Origin: a virus
Length of the DNA: 47,089 nucleotides
Reading direction: 5' to 3' (one strand)
Virus record (IMG/VR): IMGVR_UViG_3300031702_000010
Coordinates: 1 to 47,089 of that record
The notes under the pieces were generated by a model. The model was not told the origin of the DNA. It saw only the letters and a program-made list of their open reading frames with translations, and ran no database searches. The translations under genes were made by a program, and so were the position numbers. This document shows positions 28,605 through 37,307 of the stretch, piece after piece (within the stretch, counting starts at the first letter, position 1; each line of letters begins with the position of its first letter).

Positions 28605-29795
28605 TTACGTGATTTCTTTCAGAACACGGCCTGTCAATTTGAACAAAGCAGCCCGAAAGTATGCCATATTGTAGGCAAACTCATTCTTGCAGGACTGAAC
28701 AAAGTATTGGCCTTCGAGGTACATGCAGCTACCTGCGCAGAGTTGCACCACGGGACAGGCTAAACACTCTGGGCGATCTGAGAAGTGTGTGGCGGTGTCT
28801 AGCTCAATGTTGTCGAAGTCATCAACATGCCCAATCTTGTGCTTGCCTTTAGCACCTGTGTTTTGGCAGGTCTGGACGTTACCTTTGAGGTCAACAGCAA
28901 GCTGATCTGGGCGATCCATACCGCACTTCTGTCCAACAGCCGTAATAGGGCGTTCCTCGTATAGAGATTGGATGAAGCGGTCTGCCTTATGCGTGACACC
29001 TGTGTTCTCACTGGTGGCTAAATAGTAGAACATCTCGTTTGAAAGCTCTGTAAGTTCGTCCTTCTGAATACCACCAGAGCCAAGTAGGGTGCCTGCGTCA
29101 TACACATTTACAACCCCCTCAAGCCCTACCTGAACTGGGAAGTCAAAGTATCCCTGAATCCAGTCTTCAATAGCTTTGAAGTCAAAGTTACCCCGTGTCA
29201 GAACACAGTTGAAAGACATGTTACCTTGCCGCACACGGGCGAGTTCTGTGATCCACTTCATCTTCTCAGGGTCTTGGAAAGGATCGGGACCACGGTTTGC
29301 CACCTGCCCCGGACCATCATGTGAAATGGCGATGCCAATGTCATGCTCAACAATGAAGTCAATCTTCTCTTGATTCAAGACTGATCCGTTAGTGATGATT
29401 GTGACTGAGGCGTTAGGAAACCGCTTCTTGATGGTTGGAACTAGCACTTTAAGTTTGGGCCAGTAAACAAAAGGCTCACCACCCCAGAACTCAAGTTTCT
29501 CAGGCTCACCCTCAATCCATGTATCCAACTGGGCAATGAACTGCTGTGCGTCGTCTAGCTTTGATACATCATCGTTGACGATCTCAAGGCTCTGTAGGCA
29601 GTAGGAGCAAGAGTAGTTACAGGCCAGACCCATTTGAACCTTTAAGACACGGGGTGCTTTGTCTTTATGGCGGGCATGTTTGTCGAATATCCCAAACTTC
29701 TTAGGGGCAGTAGGCAACCCCTCAAGTTTATTTGCGAGATGGTCGTAGTCTAGGGCAATGACGTCTCCGTCTGGGGCTTCAAGATGCAGTTTCAA
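28605..29795 (-). CDS. Radical SAM protein with SPASM domain, 396 aa
   Basis: A probable peptide or protein-modifying radical enzyme. GLACNYSCSYCLQS holds CxxxCxxC (Cys 59, 63, 66) for the SAM-binding Fe-S cluster, followed by FWGGEP (about 105). The SPASM domain is complete: Cys 291, then G-x4-C (Cys 310), then C-x2-C-x5-C-x3-C (344, 347, 353, 357) and Cys 369. This is the pattern of anaerobic sulfatase maturases and RiPP maturases. The start is a TTG overlapping the oxygenase stop, with AGAGGA upstream. It ends an operon with two oxygenases and Cys-tailed small proteins. Confidence 0.94.
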   Translation of the reverse strand: MKLHLEAPDGDVIALDYDHLANKLEGLPTAPKKFGIFDKHARHKDKAPRVLKVQMGLACNYSCSYCLQSLEIVNDDVSKLDDAQQFIAQLDTWIEGEPEKLEFWGGEPFVYWPKLKVLVPTIKKRFPNASVTIITNGSVLNQEKIDFIVEHDIGIAISHDGPGQVANRGPDPFQDPEKMKWITELARVRQGNMSFNCVLTRGNFDFKAIEDWIQGYFDFPVQVGLEGVVNVYDAGTLLGSGGIQKDELTELSNEMFYYLATSENTGVTHKADRFIQSLYEERPITAVGQKCGMDRPDQLAVDLKGNVQTCQNTGAKGKHKIGHVDDFDNIELDTATHFSDRPECLACPVVQLCAGSCMYLEGQYFVQSCKNEFAYNMAYFRAALFKLTGRVLKEIT

Positions 29796-30403
29796 TCGAA
29801 ATGTTCCTCTTGGAATTCGTCAGGAATGTTGAGCCGAAAGTTAGCAACAACCTGAACATGGAGTGAATCACCCCTGTATGGGTGCTGGTTATGAGGTATC
29901 CAAGAAGGGAACAGAACAAGTAAGCCTGCTCTTGGATTGATGGAGTAGCCGGGCCTATCTTCAAAAGGTAGCCGAGCTTGGTCCGCATATCGTGATGGGT
30001 CTTCTAGGACAAAACGTGGATCACCAACTGAGTTGATTGGCTGACCTTCGCCACCGCCAGATAGGAATAGAACGGCGGTGACATCACCTTCACGACTGTC
30101 ACAGTGGGTACTGATGTGTGCGCCCTTTTCAATTAGTAGCGCACGGTTCTCACAGTAATCTAGGTCAAGGAACTCTGCACCTTCAGGGCCAAGGTAATGC
30201 CCTACGCAGTTGCGCATCATGTCCTTCAATTCGTCGTCTAGGAAGTGCCTAACCCGACGCTCTATGGCATTCATCATGACATCCCCAGAAGGGCGATCAG
30301 CCTTGGCGTAAGCTTCCGCAATCAACTCAGGGGCGTCCAATTCATAGAAAGCCACAGTGGTGGGCCATAAGGACACACGGGAGGTATTAACTGAATGCAC
30401 CAT
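29792..30403 (-). CDS. Fe(II)/2-oxoglutarate oxygenase, prolyl-hydroxylase-like, 203 aa
   Basis: The double-stranded beta-helix motifs are HISTHCDSREGDVTAVLFLS (H100-x-D102) and NPRAGLLVLFPSWIPHNQHP (distal His 171). In related proteins an Arg that binds 2-oxoglutarate stands about 11 residues after that His; here the aligned position is His 182, with Arg 177 nearby, so the cofactor site may differ. The fold resembles prolyl 4-hydroxylases and TIGR02466-type proteins. Its ATG overlaps the stop of a peptide with eight prolines and a Cys tail, which is a natural candidate substrate. Confidence 0.85.
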   Translation of the reverse strand: MVHSVNTSRVSLWPTTVAFYELDAPELIAEAYAKADRPSGDVMMNAIERRVRHFLDDELKDMMRNCVGHYLGPEGAEFLDLDYCENRALLIEKGAHISTHCDSREGDVTAVLFLSGGGEGQPINSVGDPRFVLEDPSRYADQARLPFEDRPGYSINPRAGLLVLFPSWIPHNQHPYRGDSLHVQVVANFRLNIPDEFQEEHFD

Positions 30404-30696
30404 CAGCAGTAGCAGGCACAGTTGCAGTTAGCCGGGGGTGGTGGTGGGGGCGGTGGGACGTAGCAGTTGTAGTAGTACCGAGTTCGGGTACGGGTCAACG
30501 ATGTAGGGCTGGTGATATTCCAAACTGCGGAACCGTAGCCTGTGAGGTAGTACCCAGAACCTGTCGTCGTGTTCACATCATTAAACAGCATCGTGGTGCC
30601 TACAGTGGCCCCGTTGGTGGGCTTACCTGTGAGACGTGTCCAGTCTACTTTCCCGTTGTCGTCTATTACGGTTGTTGAGCCTTGTTTATACGCCAT
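30403..30696 (-). CDS. Small virion-like protein with Pro8 and NCNCACYC tail, 97 aa
   Basis: MAYKQGSTTVIDDNGKVDWT is a module shared with two neighbours, resembling short segments of phage tail-fibre proteins. A beta-rich middle (GSGYYLTGYGSAVWNITSP) leads to YYYNCYV, eight prolines and the tail ANCNCACYC, in which four cysteines alternate with single residues. The Cys tail matches that of the 91-residue protein. Codons overlap the gene before (TAATG) and the oxygenase after (TGATG). A substrate for the adjacent modifying enzymes is proposed; no match is claimed. Confidence 0.8.
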   Translation of the reverse strand: MAYKQGSTTVIDDNGKVDWTRLTGKPTNGATVGTTMLFNDVNTTTGSGYYLTGYGSAVWNITSPTSLTRTRTRYYYNCYVPPPPPPPPANCNCACYC

Positions 30697-30923
30697 TAGA
30701 TTGTTGTCCTTGTGTATACGTCTCTGTACGTGGACCCTGTAAATTCAATGCCAGTAAGCGTGTACCCTGTGTAGCTAGGACCAGCCCCCACGGTGACGTA
30801 AGACGCAGAACCGAGAGAAAAGTTTGTGTTGGCGGGGACGAAGGTAGGCACACCAGTGACTTTCGCCATAGGGATGTTGCCAGAAGCGTCGATGACTACG
30901 GTTGACCCAATTTTATAAGCCAT
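30696..30923 (-). CDS. Small virion-like protein without Cys tail, 75 aa
   Basis: MAYKIGSTVVIDASGNIPMA carries the same N-terminal module as its two neighbours, and the rest (GSASYVTVGAGPSYTGYTL) is beta-rich. It ends YRDVYTRTTI, close to YQDVYRVTI of the 91-residue protein, but stops exactly where the Cys tail would begin. The ATG at 30923 overlaps the preceding TGA by one base. It looks like a paralogue lacking the modifiable tail and so a natural comparison for the hypothesis. Confidence 0.8.
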   Translation of the reverse strand: MAYKIGSTVVIDASGNIPMAKVTGVPTFVPANTNFSLGSASYVTVGAGPSYTGYTLTGIEFTGSTYRDVYTRTTI

Positions 30924-31198
30924 CAGCAGTAACACACGCAGTTGCAGTTTGAAGGTGGGGCGGATGTGCAGTTACTTATCGTCACTCGATACACATCTTG
31001 GTAGGAGGTCGAAGTATTAAACTTCATGCCAACGTGGGAGGCGGCTGAATAGACGTTACCCCCACCAACGTAGTAAGTAGAGTTAGCACCCTTTACGAGT
31101 TCTGTGTCTTTGACAGGAATACCTACGTTAGACAGTCTGTCCCACGCAATATTACCACTGTTGTCGATAACTGTCGTTGAGCCTACTTTATAAGCCAT
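30923..31198 (-). CDS. Small virion-like protein with NCNCVCYC tail, 91 aa
   Basis: MAYKVGSTTVIDNSGNIAWD leads the shared module; a beta-rich part (YYVGGGNVYSAASHVGMKFN) ends in YQDVYRVTISNC, then TSAPPSNCNCVCYC. The layout N-C, short linker with prolines, N-C-N-C-x-C-Y-C equals that of the 97-residue protein. GAGG lies upstream of the ATG, which overlaps the oxygenase stop by 11 bases. A small tail component or a maturase substrate is proposed. Confidence 0.8.
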   Translation of the reverse strand: MAYKVGSTTVIDNSGNIAWDRLSNVGIPVKDTELVKGANSTYYVGGGNVYSAASHVGMKFNTSTSYQDVYRVTISNCTSAPPSNCNCVCYC

Positions 31199-31886
31199 TT
31201 TTAATCCTCACTTTCTTCTGTCGGTTAGGGAGGAGCATGTCACATTGTATTGGGATACAGACCCGTTCAGACCCTTGAAAAAAGGTACTGTCGTGAGGCA
31301 CATGGCCTTCAAAAACCACCATTGATCCAACACGGGGAACAACCTGATACCAAGCCCCTGTGTGGAAGTTGGGGTTGAGGTTATTCCAGAGGCGGTTGCC
31401 CTTACCTGATGGATCGTAGAACCTCAAAGCCCCTGAGTGCAGAGGGGTGTCTTCGTAGCCCTCATCAAGGTCCACAACAGGATAATAGGTACACACCAAG
31501 TCGGCTCTCAGGTGGGAGTGTGTGAAGATACCGACGTTCTCTCCGCCAGACCGTTGCTGGTAAAACGTCTCAGCCACCATATCAATGTCGTAGCTATTGA
31601 CGTACCCGTAGGCCGCCAACAGATACTCGTTCACAGACTGGCGCACCATATCAACTAAGCAGGCCACTGTGGGGTGATCCGCCTTATCAGACAGTAAGTT
31701 ATGGCGCACATGACCAAAGTGGTTGGTCTTATTGCCAAGGTTTAGGAGGTTGTCGTCGTCCGTTACTTCGTGAAACTTTGAGTCCTCACGGGCTAAGTTT
31801 CCTAAAGTGTTGTTGAAAGCATCAGCCATATCCCACGTCTTGTGCATTACGAAGTTAGGAAAGATCGCCTGAAGGTTAGATGACAT
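31188..31886 (-). CDS. Fe(II)/2-oxoglutarate oxygenase, TIGR02466-like, 232 aa
   Basis: The iron ligands fit SGGENVGIFTHSHLRADLVC (H-x-H) and GSMVVFEGHVPHDSTFFQGS (distal His), with the Arg of SERVCIPIQCDM ten residues after it as expected for 2-oxoglutarate binding. GALRFYDPSG and YYPVVDLDEG match the core strands. The ATG at 31886 overlaps the stop of the upstream 297-residue gene; an in-frame TTG further up has no better support. It directly precedes the first Cys-tailed protein and so is linked to it by translation. Confidence 0.82.
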   Translation of the reverse strand: MSSNLQAIFPNFVMHKTWDMADAFNNTLGNLAREDSKFHEVTDDDNLLNLGNKTNHFGHVRHNLLSDKADHPTVACLVDMVRQSVNEYLLAAYGYVNSYDIDMVAETFYQQRSGGENVGIFTHSHLRADLVCTYYPVVDLDEGYEDTPLHSGALRFYDPSGKGNRLWNNLNPNFHTGAWYQVVPRVGSMVVFEGHVPHDSTFFQGSERVCIPIQCDMLLPNRQKKVRIKNGL

Positions 31887-32769
31887 CAACAATGATCCGC
31901 CCAATGCCGCTGTAATGGATGGAGTTGAGTTTAATGTTGATTTGGTCCCCTGCTACCAACCCCCAAGCATGTACCATAGCAGTCGCTGATCCATTTTCAC
32001 TCATGGTGATTTGCTTGTGGGGAGCGTAGCCAGTGTGTTCTTTCAAATGAACAATTGTGGTGTGGTTCATATTAGAGTCATCGCCGTTCTCAATAAGCTG
32101 CATGGGAACTTCAATAGACCCGCCTGCTGCCACGGTAAGGCCAGAGGGCGTATCACAACGCCAGTAGAAGCGTTCGTAGTTGGCCCCATCTTTTATAAAG
32201 GACTCTGTGTCGATCATTTGGATGGGGGGAGTGTCTCCAATCATCAACGGAGCATGTTCACCGATCAGAATGATGGACTTGGTATCTGCGAGAGAGCCTG
32301 TGTTGATGGGCATGAACAAGGATGAAAAATCAAGCATGTTCGGATAATGGGCATAGTTGCGAGACGTTGATCCATTTTTGATGTGCCGACTGTCTAGGAA
32401 CCGACTGCGCCATGTATCCAGTTTTCCCGCCACTATGCGGAATTCTAACCGACTGTAATCTGGAGCCTCTTTATGCCCTTGAAGGCCATCAATGTTGAAC
32501 GAGACTGCACCTTGGTACGTGAATAGTACATCGTCGATGCTATACAGATCACCTTGGAACACCGTGTCTACTTGATCACCTGCGGGAGAGTTCCCCGACA
32601 TCAGGTGGGCCTTGAGGACGTTCAACTGCTCTGGGTCGCCGTTGTGTGGCGTTTCACCGTGGTAGGGCTTCATGACGCCAAAGGTGAGTACCGTGTTGGT
32701 GCAGTTGATGATGAGTTTTTCATCAATCGGGGCAGGAAATCCAAACAGCCCTTTTTCAGAGTTAAGCAT
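31876..32769 (-). CDS. Hypothetical virion-region protein, 297 aa
   Basis: The start at 32769 is chosen because AAAGGA lies just before it, giving MLNSEKGLFGFPAPIDEKLI. The protein is beta-rich, with NMNHTTIVHLKEHTGYAPHK near the end and IRVIDVI-like final strands. It has no transmembrane segment and no enzyme signature. It sits between the tail fibre and the oxygenase. A fibre-associated or receptor-binding protein is possible; no family is recognised. Confidence 0.7.
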   Translation of the reverse strand: MLNSEKGLFGFPAPIDEKLIINCTNTVLTFGVMKPYHGETPHNGDPEQLNVLKAHLMSGNSPAGDQVDTVFQGDLYSIDDVLFTYQGAVSFNIDGLQGHKEAPDYSRLEFRIVAGKLDTWRSRFLDSRHIKNGSTSRNYAHYPNMLDFSSLFMPINTGSLADTKSIILIGEHAPLMIGDTPPIQMIDTESFIKDGANYERFYWRCDTPSGLTVAAGGSIEVPMQLIENGDDSNMNHTTIVHLKEHTGYAPHKQITMSENGSATAMVHAWGLVAGDQINIKLNSIHYSGIGRIIVDVI

Positions 32770-32788: not shown

Positions 32789-35635
32789 TTAAGTCTCGCA
32801 AGCGCAGGTGGGGTTCTCACCGCAAGCACATGTGGTTTCTTTAAGGTTAGAGCAGGTACACGCAGTGCTATTTACTCTCTCAGTAAGCTCTTTGATGGCC
32901 TCAATAAGAAGGCCAACCACGTTGCCGTAGGCTACTGATTTCATACCATCTTCATTGTCTAGCACAGCTTCAGGGAGTACGGCCTCTAACTCTTGAGCAA
33001 TGACACCTGTGGATCGTTTGCCATTCATATCAAATGTCACACCACGGAGGGCTTGCACCTTGGTTACTGCATCATCAATGACTTCAATGTTATTCTTCAG
33101 GCGTATGTCAGATGAAGCTGTGATGTCACCAGAAGCAACGATACTGCCAGCTACGGTCAGCGTTCCTGTGAAGGTGTCACTGACGTTACTGCGTAGGTAG
33201 TTTGCAGAAGAAATACCATCTAGCAAATCTGCATTCAAGCCAGATCCTGCTCCGTCTACCGTCTTAATGGCAGTAAGTATTTGAGCAGCAGACTGATCGG
33301 CAGTAGCCCCAGATTCAATTCCGTCCAGCTTTGTACCGTCAGTAGCAACGTCACGTCCGTCTACTGTTCCAGTTACAACTACACTATCAGCAGTCACGTT
33401 ACCCGGAAAACTACTGTTGCCACTAGAATCACAGATTGTAGTAGTATGGCGACCAGCCCATCCAGAGGACCAATTATTAGGGCTGCTGTTTACCTGAAGG
33501 CCACTCTCTGCATTGATGTATACAAACTCAGCTGTTTGGCCCGTGGCCACTGTGTGAGATTCACCTGCGTTGATTACAAACTGTGCGCCTCCATATGCCC
33601 GTATATCTCTGGCGTAAAGAGTAGTACTGGCGTTAAGGTTACCTGTAAGGGTGCCGCCTGAGGCATTGATGATTTCACTACCAAAAAGGTGGCCTTTATT
33701 TGTAAGAGTGCTCAATGTCAGAGGGTGTGGGGCTTCGTGCCCCCCTGCATCGTCACGGTCAGCAAGAACATAGAAGGTGTTACTGTTAGCGTGAACATAG
33801 AAGTCATCCGCACCCGCAGTTGTGTCGTTAAGTTTAACCAAAGGCCCGCTGCCTGAGAGGGTCAAATTACCTGTCATGGTGCCGCCAGCTTTAGGTAGAG
33901 CAGCATTGGCTGTCACACCTTGGGCCGCAGTGGCATAAGCTGTCGTGTCCGTCTGCGCCGCTGTTCCCAGTGTGGAGGGGTCAAATGGTGCAGGTTGGTT
34001 GGTCAGATCGTTAAATGAGCCTGACGTTGCTACGGTAGCCAGTGTGGCGGGGTCAAACGGAGCAGGTTGGTTGCTTAGGTCCGTGTATGAGCCAGAAGCT
34101 GCAACCGTAGACAAGCCAAGGTTTGTTCTAGCTGTTGTGGCGCTAGCAAGGTCAGAGAGGTTGTTTGATTTCAGCAGTGTGCCTGTGGCGTTGGAGGCTG
34201 CTGTAACCGCTGAAGCTGCTGCATTAGTCTCGCTGGTCCCTGCTGCGGTAGCACTGGATGCTGCTGCGGTAGCATTGGAGGCAACTGCCGCCTCTGAAGC
34301 AGATGCGTTCGTAGCTGACGTCCCTGCTGCTGTTTCACTAGCGGCAGCATTAGTAGCGCTGGTTGTGGCGGTTACTGCGGAGGTTGCTGCGTTAGTCTCA
34401 CTGGTTCCTGCCACCACTGAAGAAGCTGCAGAAGCGGTTGCAGATACAGCGGAAGCGGTTGCAGAGGACGCTGCGTTAGTTTCACTAGTGGTTGCGGATG
34501 ACTGTGAAGCTGTGGCGCTTGTCTGTGATGAAGCTGATGCCGTTTCGCTAGCTGCTGCGTTGGTTTCAGATGTCGCTGCAGAGGTTGCAGACGCAGCGGC
34601 AGCGGTGGCACTATTAGCCGCCGAGGATGTGGAACCAAAGGTAGCATCAATATAACCCTTAGTGGCCGCATCCGTTCCTGTTAATGGTGTAGGTAAGCCT
34701 GAAACAGAGTGACCGCCCATCGCAATAGCACCCGACATCGTACCACCGGCTTTAGGAAGCTTAGTCGCAATGCTGTTGGTTACTGTGGTTGAAAAGGAAG
34801 CATCATCACCTAAGGCGGCTGCAATCTCGTTTAGGGTATTAAGTGCATCAGGGGCAGCAGCTATAAGGGCGCTTACCTCTGTATCAACATAGGCTTTGGT
34901 CGCCGCATCAGTACCTAAGACAGGGTTTGCTACATTCTTAATAACCGTGTTGGTTACGTCGATAGTGCCGTTTACCGTCAGGTTGGTGAAGGAACTGTTA
35001 CCAGTAGCAGCAGTTATGTTGCCTGTTACGGCACCTTCAAGTGGGCCTGTGAAACCACCTGTGGCAGACACGGTTGTGAAACCACCTGAGGTAGCGGTCA
35101 TGCCCTGTAGGCCAGTTGTACCTGTTACGACTAACTCTCCGCCTACAGATATATCCCCAGCCGCTGTCACATCACCTGAAAGCCATGCATCCTTAAAGCG
35201 TACTGCCGTGCTACCCACATCAATAGTGTTGGTGGCGCTAGGTATGATCCCCGTACCAGAGGTGACCTGAACCACTTCACGCCATACTGCTGCGTTGTTG
35301 GTGTTACCTACGCAAAAGTAAATACGGCTAGTGGTGGTGTTTTCCCAAAGAGACCCTACAGCGTAGCCTAAACCAATATCATCAGTTGCCTGCGGTGTAG
35401 TGGTGGCTTCCAGGTTGTGCTTCCCGCCAGTCCCGCCGTGAACGACAGGGAGTACACCGGACAGGGATGTGGCTAGATTGACCTTTGGGCCACCGCCCGT
35501 TGAGCCGTCGTGGGAGTGACCTGAAGTGGCGTGAAAAGCCGCCGCAATCTGGTTGAATTCAGCAGTTAGCGGTGGTGCCGTAACCTCCGAACCGTTGATA
35601 ATGTCTGCTGTAGATTGGCGTGTGTAACCGACCAT
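32789..35635 (-). CDS. Tail fibre with Ala/Ser/Thr repeats, S74 chaperone and CxC tail, 948 aa
   Basis: The start at 35635 follows AGGGAG and gives MVGYTRQSTADIINGSEVTA. N-terminal fibre motifs (FHATSGHSHDGSTGGGP, GVLPVVHGGTGG) are followed by a long coiled region of Ala/Ser/Thr repeats (SATAAASSATAAGTSETNAA, about residues 330-490). Beta-rich fibre modules follow. SSDIRLKNNIEVIDDAVTKV and RSTGVIAQELEAVL form the S74 chaperone, which cleaves itself at the first Ser. Unusually, about 25 residues after it hold three CxC pairs (CTC, CAC, CAC), echoing the Cys tails of the downstream small proteins. Confidence 0.88.
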   Translation of the reverse strand: MVGYTRQSTADIINGSEVTAPPLTAEFNQIAAAFHATSGHSHDGSTGGGPKVNLATSLSGVLPVVHGGTGGKHNLEATTTPQATDDIGLGYAVGSLWENTTTSRIYFCVGNTNNAAVWREVVQVTSGTGIIPSATNTIDVGSTAVRFKDAWLSGDVTAAGDISVGGELVVTGTTGLQGMTATSGGFTTVSATGGFTGPLEGAVTGNITAATGNSSFTNLTVNGTIDVTNTVIKNVANPVLGTDAATKAYVDTEVSALIAAAPDALNTLNEIAAALGDDASFSTTVTNSIATKLPKAGGTMSGAIAMGGHSVSGLPTPLTGTDAATKGYIDATFGSTSSAANSATAAAASATSAATSETNAAASETASASSQTSATASQSSATTSETNAASSATASAVSATASAASSVVAGTSETNAATSAVTATTSATNAAASETAAGTSATNASASEAAVASNATAAASSATAAGTSETNAAASAVTAASNATGTLLKSNNLSDLASATTARTNLGLSTVAASGSYTDLSNQPAPFDPATLATVATSGSFNDLTNQPAPFDPSTLGTAAQTDTTAYATAAQGVTANAALPKAGGTMTGNLTLSGSGPLVKLNDTTAGADDFYVHANSNTFYVLADRDDAGGHEAPHPLTLSTLTNKGHLFGSEIINASGGTLTGNLNASTTLYARDIRAYGGAQFVINAGESHTVATGQTAEFVYINAESGLQVNSSPNNWSSGWAGRHTTTICDSSGNSSFPGNVTADSVVVTGTVDGRDVATDGTKLDGIESGATADQSAAQILTAIKTVDGAGSGLNADLLDGISSANYLRSNVSDTFTGTLTVAGSIVASGDITASSDIRLKNNIEVIDDAVTKVQALRGVTFDMNGKRSTGVIAQELEAVLPEAVLDNEDGMKSVAYGNVVGLLIEAIKELTERVNSTACTCSNLKETTCACGENPTCACET

Positions 35636-35636
35636 G

Positions 35637-37307
35637 TTAACGTCTCCCTGCGACGGAAAATTCAAATACGATGCCTTGGATGGAGAAAGGCTTAGTTTGT
35701 CCCACCGTCACAAAGGTAGCTCGAACTGAGTAGCCGCTGCCTTGGATGTCGGAGGTCATTATGGGTTTAGAGGAACCGCCGTAGAGAGTGTTAGCCCCAG
35801 CGTAATTTATGGAACGGCCACCGTAGACAGTGGGGCCTCCTTCGCTTTCTTGCGTATATGTTGATGGTCGTGAAGTATTGTAGTCGCCCCAGTCGTAGGA
35901 AATGGCGAGGTTCATTTCGACGGGGCCTTCAGCACGGATAAACGTATTTACCTTGCGCATTACCTTGCGCTGCTCAGTCTCGCCGAAGTCTAGATAAGGT
36001 GTGGAATACACGGCAACAATGTCGGCTGAGTTGAAGGAGTCACCCCGCTCTTGGCGGTACACTTTACCATCATAGTCGCCATGCAGGACGTACTCTTCAG
36101 TGCCAATGTACTCAGAGGTACAGCAGGAGGCACGAATACCAATAAGCTCACCAAACTCCCAAGTAATGGACCCGCTGCTGTCGGAGAGGCCCCCAATAAT
36201 TCCTGGGCTATCCACAGCACCTGTAGTGTTGTCCCCCACAAAGTAACGGACTTGGGATTTAGACCGTACAACAACACCGTTGAGTGTGGCCATGTCGTTG
36301 TTTTTGATTATATCTACCAGAGTAGCCTGAATAGGTTTAGACACCGTCTCTAATTCAACGTCACCAATACGGCTTGTACCGGCAACAGGGCGTAGGCCAT
36401 CAGGGGCTAGGAACATCAAGTCACCACCAATTTCCATAACGCTATCTGGTGCAACACAGCCTACATTTGAAGTAACCTGGTCCGAAATAAAGCCTGCTGA
36501 GTTATCAGCGGATAGCTTCTTGATGGCGTTGTTACCAAAGAGGAATAGGTTGCCACGAAAGGGTTTGATTTGAACCACATCGAAGCCTGCAAATATCTGG
36601 CCCGCACCGGCAGCAACCGTGAAGTTGTAAGGATCGCCAGGTGCTGAGTGAGATAGTGTGGCCTTGGCGGTATCATCACCAGCAAGGAATAAATGGTTTT
36701 TATAGACCTGAACTAAAGAAGGCGCATTAACACACTGATCACCACCACCTGTGGCGGCACTATGCCCTGCGTCGGATGGCTTAGTTCCTGTACCTGTTGT
36801 AACCAGTTCTTCTGTGTGGGAGCCGCTGAAAATGATAGCAGGATTAACTCCGTCTACGAATACAATGGAGTTGCCCTGACCAAAGTTAAACGTGGCATGT
36901 CGTAGCTTCGTAACGGTGCGTGTACCTATAGTCATGCTACGGGAAATGCTGTGATCCATCGTCCACTTGCGCCAACCAATGTTAGCCGTGAAGTAATAGA
37001 AGCTGTAGGTATTGGCACCTACATCCTTACGGGCGGCAATAACATAAGTCAGGTCTGCCACATCATCTTTGTAGATTGCGACGCCTAAGACCTTACCTTC
37101 AGCACTGCCACTAGTGGTGACCTCAGGATAATTACTGCTGTATTCTTCGAAGCCCTCAACACGACGATACCCGCCATACAAGGAGGGTTCGTAGTTGAGA
37201 AGTCGGGTGGCTGAACCTGGGGCTGAGTCTGATAAGTCGAGATGGTTCTCATTACTATTTAGACCGCCAGAGCAGATCAACTTATGTGATTGGATACGAT
37301 CAGGCAT
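35637..37307 (-). CDS. Tail nozzle (tail tubular protein B-like), 556 aa
   Basis: MPDRIQSHKLICSGGLNSNE and NYEPSLYGGYRRVEGFEEYS begin a large beta-rich protein; SVQYVGGDQCVNAPSLVQVY-like and RPVAGTSRIGDVELETVSKP segments fit a beta-propeller. Size and order after the 229-residue protein match the T7 gp12 type nozzle. The stop TAA lies directly before the fibre start. No enzymatic motif is seen. Confidence 0.78.
   Translation of the reverse strand: MPDRIQSHKLICSGGLNSNENHLDLSDSAPGSATRLLNYEPSLYGGYRRVEGFEEYSSNYPEVTTSGSAEGKVLGVAIYKDDVADLTYVIAARKDVGANTYSFYYFTANIGWRKWTMDHSISRSMTIGTRTVTKLRHATFNFGQGNSIVFVDGVNPAIIFSGSHTEELVTTGTGTKPSDAGHSAATGGGDQCVNAPSLVQVYKNHLFLAGDDTAKATLSHSAPGDPYNFTVAAGAGQIFAGFDVVQIKPFRGNLFLFGNNAIKKLSADNSAGFISDQVTSNVGCVAPDSVMEIGGDLMFLAPDGLRPVAGTSRIGDVELETVSKPIQATLVDIIKNNDMATLNGVVVRSKSQVRYFVGDNTTGAVDSPGIIGGLSDSSGSITWEFGELIGIRASCCTSEYIGTEEYVLHGDYDGKVYRQERGDSFNSADIVAVYSTPYLDFGETEQRKVMRKVNTFIRAEGPVEMNLAISYDWGDYNTSRPSTYTQESEGGPTVYGGRSINYAGANTLYGGSSKPIMTSDIQGSGYSVRATFVTVGQTKPFSIQGIVFEFSVAGRR

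Follow-up and report, generated by a model that had tools for sequence, protein, structure and literature searches.

Related systems

In the PapB/PapA ranthipeptide pairs, the radical S-adenosylmethionine (SAM)/SPASM enzyme PapB forms thioethers between Cys and Asp or Glu, with a change of -2 Da, and can bridge separations of 0-6 residues (PMC9413430). A gene cassette in a 47,089-nucleotide viral stretch (IMG/VR record IMGVR_UViG_3300031702_000010, analysed over its whole length and called the window below) resembles these pairs: it has a radical SAM/SPASM enzyme, and the proposed target is a C-terminal segment, rich in Cys, of the protein encoded by a neighbouring gene. Unlike PapA, however, the proposed substrate here is a fibre-like protein. 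The segment consists of (Asn/Ala/Asp)-Cys repeats and has no CX3D motifs, the window's enzyme scores 65.8 bits against a PapB cut-off of 340, and no separate recognition domain is seen in its structural model. Because the score lies under the cut-off and the tails are (N/A/D)C repeats rather than the CX3D/E motifs of PapB-type precursors, the system falls outside the PapB ranthipeptide class. The cassette is probably a phage-encoded system for maturation of the fibre tip, in which the radical SAM enzyme would act on the Cys tail with 2-oxoglutarate (2OG) oxygenases as frequent helpers.

With CteB, the maturase of SCIFF (six cysteines in forty-five residues) peptides, and with other thioether and cyclophane enzymes, the window's enzyme shares the fold (5why is the best match) and the complete SPASM cysteine set of two auxiliary clusters, but identity is about 20% and CteB-type substrates are short peptides. 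The anaerobic sulfatase maturase anSME, the next fold match, and QhpD, the best NCBIfam hit, offer a parallel in that residues of a full-size protein are modified; scores are far below the equivalog cut-offs, however, and those enzymes act on host enzymes, not phage fibres. Both oxygenases of the window belong to the superfamily of the phage 2OG-Fe(II) oxygenases of phrog_81/PF13759. Such phage genes are usually listed as auxiliary metabolic genes, e.g. DNA-repair genes (PMC11288001), whereas the two found here sit inside a fibre/radical SAM cassette. The fibres T5 pb1 and K1F endosialidase have a C-terminal S74 chaperone that self-cleavage releases. A chaperone of this type is present in the window fibre, and in two related loci (L072 and L074) it directly follows the Cys stretch; descriptions of T5 pb1 and K1F endosialidase mention neither a Cys tail nor a radical enzyme. 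No published account of a radical SAM enzyme that acts on phage fibres was found in open-licence papers, which is no proof of novelty.

Association of the tail with the enzyme

Do the Cys tail and the enzyme travel together? A neighbourhood survey, proposed in advance in a first-pass annotation of the window, was carried out in both directions. Starting from the enzyme, a search of viral contigs with a single protein gave 4 relatives. When three aligned enzymes (from the window, viral locus L005 and Achromobacter phage JWF) served as the query, viral contigs yielded at least 359 and bacterial genome contigs 159, and the best 80 from each source were analysed. Before removal of redundancy, 133 enzymes had at least 3 kb of upstream sequence. 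In the 5 kb upstream of these, CxCxCxC is present on the enzyme's own strand for 107 and on the opposite strand for 8. Alternating-Cys C-termini are found in 117 open reading frames (ORFs) on the enzyme's strand versus 7 on the other.

Removing enzymes more than 90% identical and requiring at least 5 kb upstream gave 103 non-redundant loci, which are still related by ancestry. Under a loose rule (CxCxC close to the ORF end, or directly before a Hint or S74 domain, within 7.5 kb on the same strand) a tail is present at 91 of the 103; the rule overlooks one real Hint-type tail (L052). A strict rule requires the tail to end an ORF of at least 30 amino acids no more than 5 kb upstream; by this rule the count is 83 on the same strand versus 21 on the opposite strand. 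Upstream of the enzyme, tail ORFs of at least 60 amino acids number 89 per 515 kb (one strand), compared with 3 per 490 kb in viral loci lacking the enzyme (both strands).

In the reverse direction, viral contigs were scanned for NCNCxCxC-stop blind to the enzyme, with at least 119 matches. Among the matches listed, wherever the tail ends an ORF of at least 80 amino acids with at least 1.5 kb downstream, the enzyme follows on the same strand (47 of 47). The long-ORF matches with the enzyme lie 1-2457 bp from it and represent 31 distinct tails. Frames shorter than 60 amino acids, mostly chance occurrences, have the enzyme in 3 of 48 cases. The two directions are not fully independent, since some contigs are common to both sets. 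In the window itself NCNCxCxC-stop occurs exactly twice, and in none of 100 shuffles (expected 0.00). A chance or wrong-frame origin of the tails was ruled out by the shuffles, the strand bias and the short-frame controls.

Phage isolates gave 37 records with the enzyme. Strong, near-full-length relatives are restricted to Achromobacter phages JWF and 2-1 (three records), and the Campylobacter and Vibrio matches are partial, with less than 30% identity.

The radical SAM/SPASM enzyme

The window's enzyme matches PF04055 at 1.1e-09 and exceeds the cut-off of the SPASM model TIGR04085, which is matched by all 55 family members searched. The radical SAM cysteines 59/63/66 and the SPASM cysteines 291/310/344/347/353/357/369 are invariant in 67 of 67 aligned members. 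An AlphaFold model (predicted local distance difference test, pLDDT, 94.8; predicted template-modelling score 0.92) has as its best solved folds 5why (E 7e-15), 4k36, 9gm3/9gmc, 8vpo and 5v1q, which are CteB, anSME, ChlB, TigE and SuiB, respectively. The PapB, nif11, geopeptide and CcpM maturase models are matched by 55 of 55 members, and the window's enzyme scores under the cut-offs of the listed maturase equivalogs; it thus represents a separate family within the SPASM maturases. A viperin-like or QueE-like function was set aside, as the full SPASM set and the fold indicate peptide and sulfatase maturases.

In the enzyme tree the window's sequence groups beside a clade from Roseobacteraceae prophages (support 81). 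Enzymes from two contigs binned as Akkermansia and Bacteroidetes (L138, L143) group with those of Comamonadaceae, and may reflect misbinning. A second, shorter radical SAM protein is encoded directly upstream of the main enzyme in nine loci (L067, 6794-7807, and eight others).

A side clade in Variovorax, Ramlibacter and a gammaproteobacterial metagenome-assembled genome is monophyletic (support 100), lies in chromosomal clusters and has no tail. The neighbourhood in Variovorax locus L103 encodes a YcaO-nitroreductase fusion (PF02624, PF00881), and a short Cys-containing peptide adjoins the enzyme; similar peptides are at the matching place in L105 and L107. This arrangement is that of a cluster of the kind that makes ribosomally synthesized and post-translationally modified peptides (RiPPs). 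With its related radical SAM enzyme, the RiPP-like cluster of L103 (4134-9128), seen also in L101, L102, L105, L107 and L108, includes an ATP-grasp-like protein by inspection.

Tails and their carriers

Residues between the cysteines are Asn (61%), Ala (16%) and Asp (12%) in 114 tails, and Asn directly precedes the first Cys in 97 of 113. A run has 3-9 cysteines and stops exactly at the last one in 54 of the 114. After trimming of the tail, the carrier proteins fall into groups unlinked by sequence, of sizes 75, 20, 5, 3 and 2 plus four singles; for the main tail-bearing family, the representative sequence has matches among tail fibre PHROGs. In most relatives the tail is the C-terminus of a larger fibre-like protein, whereas the window has it on two small fibre-like proteins. 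That of 91 amino acids is 34% identical over its length to a Cys-tailed protein of viral locus L018, which ends in NCNCQCYC. A window small protein used as query against phage isolates gave no match even at E 0.1. Between the two tailed copies is a third small protein that shares the N-terminal MAYKxGS motif and has no Cys tail; it ends with RDVYTRTTI at about the point where its neighbours run into the tail.

Where the tail is not at the stop codon, it sits directly before a Hint or S74 domain. A Hint domain (PF05203) follows the tail above cut-off in Achromobacter phage JWF gp028 and below cut-off in L034; in L119, L137, L145 and L147 a Hint-type domain is indicated by weak or motif-only evidence. 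A poly-(Lys-Cys) stretch followed by an S74 chaperone is found in L072 (460-1197) and L074 (942-1736). These two stretches are long, and about 6 kb separates them from the radical SAM gene. The Hint family is known for self-processing, and is hence expected to expose the tail. In T5 pb1 the S74 chaperone is freed by self-cleavage (PMC4690869). Cleavage at either type of domain should therefore uncover an internal tail.

Oxygenases and the 297-residue protein

Oxygenase A of the window matches phrog_81 at 7e-10 and PF13759 with 24.3 bits against a cut-off of 27; oxygenase B is above that cut-off, and profile iteration leads from either oxygenase to one common superfamily. Among 170 members of the superfamily, the first metal His is present in all and the distal His in 169. 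The +2 position is H in 85, D in 40 and E in 37; oxygenase B has HCD and oxygenase A has HSH. Of the 103 enzymes, 60 have one or more 2OG oxygenases nearby, and at least 11 gains or losses are forced on the enzyme tree, so the oxygenases are best regarded as recurrent, non-obligate helpers. Obligate partnership was rejected on the 60 of 103 count.

The family of the 297-residue protein is near 71 of the 103 enzymes. The C-terminal ~95 residues model as an immunoglobulin (Ig)-like sandwich (mostly pLDDT 93-98, AlphaFold). The best whole-length viral fold matches are uncharacterized phage proteins, and solved structures gave only weak Ig-like matches.

Proposed function and alternatives

The tail is the enzyme's most likely substrate: the two are associated in both directions of the survey, the tail sits at the C-terminus of unrelated proteins, and the enzyme resembles maturases. 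At most enzyme loci a candidate precursor gene with a conserved modifiable core lies near the maturase gene, as in RiPP clusters, and by analogy tail and enzyme may work as a RiPP precursor and its maturase do. The enzyme would recognize the C-terminal alternating-Cys tail, with its Asn, Ala and Asp spacers, on a fibre or small fibre-like protein and would install radical-derived links in it. Most likely these would be thioethers that join a Cys sulphur to the carbon of a side chain nearby, since PapB joins Cys to Asp/Glu and accepts a range of separations. One or two Fe(II)/2OG oxygenases probably hydroxylate Asn/Asp of the same tail or residues of a partner protein, and the 297-residue protein probably serves the tip as a structural partner or as an assembly factor. 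Where Hint or S74 domains follow, their self-cleavage would expose the modified end, which would then be part of the virion. What might the bonds do there? Tip stability, cross-linking of chains in the trimer and receptor contact are possible roles.

The first-pass annotation had suggested that the enzymes modify the small proteins, or the fibre, to give a cross-linked or hydroxylated tail tip. As regards the tail, both directions of the survey strongly favour this, including the enzyme-blind matches with the enzyme downstream. The oxygenases are less constant than the suggestion implied, and the choice between cross-link and hydroxylation is not fixed by sequence.

Several observations weigh against fibre-tip maturation. 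The tail is poor in Asp/Glu, the PapB acceptors, and rich in Asn; PapB-like chemistry would here often need Asn or Ala as acceptor. Matches to PapB, QhpD and other maturases are far below the curated cut-offs and hence do not settle the bond type. Judged from the AlphaFold model alone, the enzyme shows no domain like a RiPP recognition element (RRE); ahead of the core there is just a short pair of N-terminal strands. No 2OG oxygenase was detected at 43 of the 103 enzyme loci. About 11 loci have no tail. L098 is the degraded remnant of a prophage, others belong to the chromosomal RiPP-like clade, and L020, L043, L128, L136 and L159 are unexplained. At least one likely chance match (L102) is among the 91 loci counted under the loose rule.

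Could the tail bind metal or an iron-sulphur cluster at the tip, the role of the radical SAM enzyme being to help build or insert that site, with no peptide cross-linking at all? Dense CxC runs with Asn/Asp between the cysteines do look like metal-binding sequences, and the three chains of a trimeric fibre would gather many thiols. We consider this unlikely, however: by profile and fold the enzyme's nearest relatives are maturases of peptide or protein side-chains and not metal-cluster assembly enzymes, and a plain site would need no dedicated enzyme, yet one is present in every long-ORF case of the reverse test among those listed. A different target, be it the 297-residue protein, another virion protein or a host component, is quite unlikely too. 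Phages commonly exchange fibre genes as linked sets, and the tail could co-travel with the enzymes by exchange of fibre cassettes; the frequent company of the 297-residue family fits such a target. But the tail is the most constant partner, despite several unrelated carriers and a variable distance, and all testable enzyme-blind tail matches listed have the enzyme.

RiPP-like genetics, together with the side clade in chromosomal YcaO clusters with short peptides, might also suggest that the Cys-tailed proteins are true RiPP precursors whose tail is cut off as a small bioactive peptide, the cluster being phage cargo. This seems very improbable, as fibre-like proteins of 200-700 amino acids carry the tail at their end in many loci, and self-cleaving domains are C-terminal to the tail, so that cleavage leaves the tail on the fibre. 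Nor is there an obvious protease or exporter among the common neighbour families, most of which were identified only by inspection.

Fibre-tip maturation can be put in more specific terms, as a distinct phage system: a poly-(Asn-Cys) cap at the distal fibre end, cross-linked by the radical enzyme and perhaps also hydroxylated, reused on unrelated fibre proteins, exposed by Hint or S74 domains and found mainly in alpha- and betaproteobacterial phages and prophages. To this fuller description we would give an even chance. If correct, phages build their own fibre tips with RiPP-type radical chemistry, and fibre structures made without the enzyme would miss the modified tip. A large group of phage radical SAM genes labelled 'other' (phrog_1802) would gain a testable function, as possibly would some common phage 2OG oxygenases filed as auxiliary metabolism. 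The finding would also add a peptide-modifying enzyme family whose short, C-terminal target motif is present on several different protein bodies.

Layout of the cassette

The source phage is of marine type, and its 47-kb record carries integrase, DnaB-type helicase, DNA polymerase, ribonucleotide reductase, terminase and portal genes. No close DNA relatives among phage isolates were found by megablast. The cassette has an operon-like order (Table 1); gene calls are mechanical.

Table 1. Genes of the cassette in the window, listed leftward from the tail fibre
Feature	Position (strand)	Length	Characteristics
Tail fibre	32789-35665 (-)	958 aa	S74 chaperone; PF13884 1.2e-13, fibre PHROGs
297-aa partner protein	31876-32769 (-)	297 aa	beta-rich, C-terminal Ig-like domain; phage-specific family
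2OG-Fe(II) oxygenase A	31188-31904 (-)	up to 238 aa	phrog_81; PF13759 sub-threshold
Small fibre-like protein	30923-31198 (-)	91 aa	C-terminal end SNCNCVCYC; proposed substrate
Paralogous small protein without Cys tail	30696-30935 (-)	79 aa by longest ORF	contains MAYKIGSTVVID
Small fibre-like protein	30403-30696 (-)	97 aa	C-terminal end PPPPPPPPANCNCACYC; proposed substrate
2OG-Fe(II) oxygenase B	29792-30403 (-)	203 aa	HxD...H; PF13759 above cut-off
Radical SAM/SPASM enzyme	28605-29795 (-)	396 aa	TTG start; CxxxCxxC and seven SPASM cysteines

All eight leftward genes of the first-pass annotation are present on the minus strand where it had placed them. Its radical SAM enzyme with a complete SPASM set agrees with PF04055 and TIGR04085, and the cysteine positions it cited are exact. 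Both oxygenases hold, A by way of phrog_81 and the convergence of its profile with that of B, and so do the NCNCxCYC ends of two small proteins. Overlap at the gene junctions is true of the majority, by a few bases (the exact size varies with the chosen start), e.g. 4 bases between oxygenase B and the radical SAM start; the fibre and 297-residue genes do not overlap and are separated by 19 bases.

The window's order recurs in a Roseobacteraceae prophage, that of Thalassovita autumnalis (L090): S74 fibre, 297-residue homologue, oxygenase A, a MAYK...NCNCNCRC protein, oxygenase B and radical SAM enzyme. Other Roseobacteraceae prophages are arranged likewise. A variant cassette in viral locus L005 (6272-10011) has a 78-residue protein ending in WNCACACDCACACSK; by inspection it also has an Asp-hydroxylase-like 2OG protein, with no Pfam hit, and a GNAT-like protein. 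In the window fibre, the end that follows the S74 domain has three CxC pairs (ACTCSNLKETTCACGENPTCACET; 32789-32870, minus strand), a pattern unlike that of the NCNC tails.

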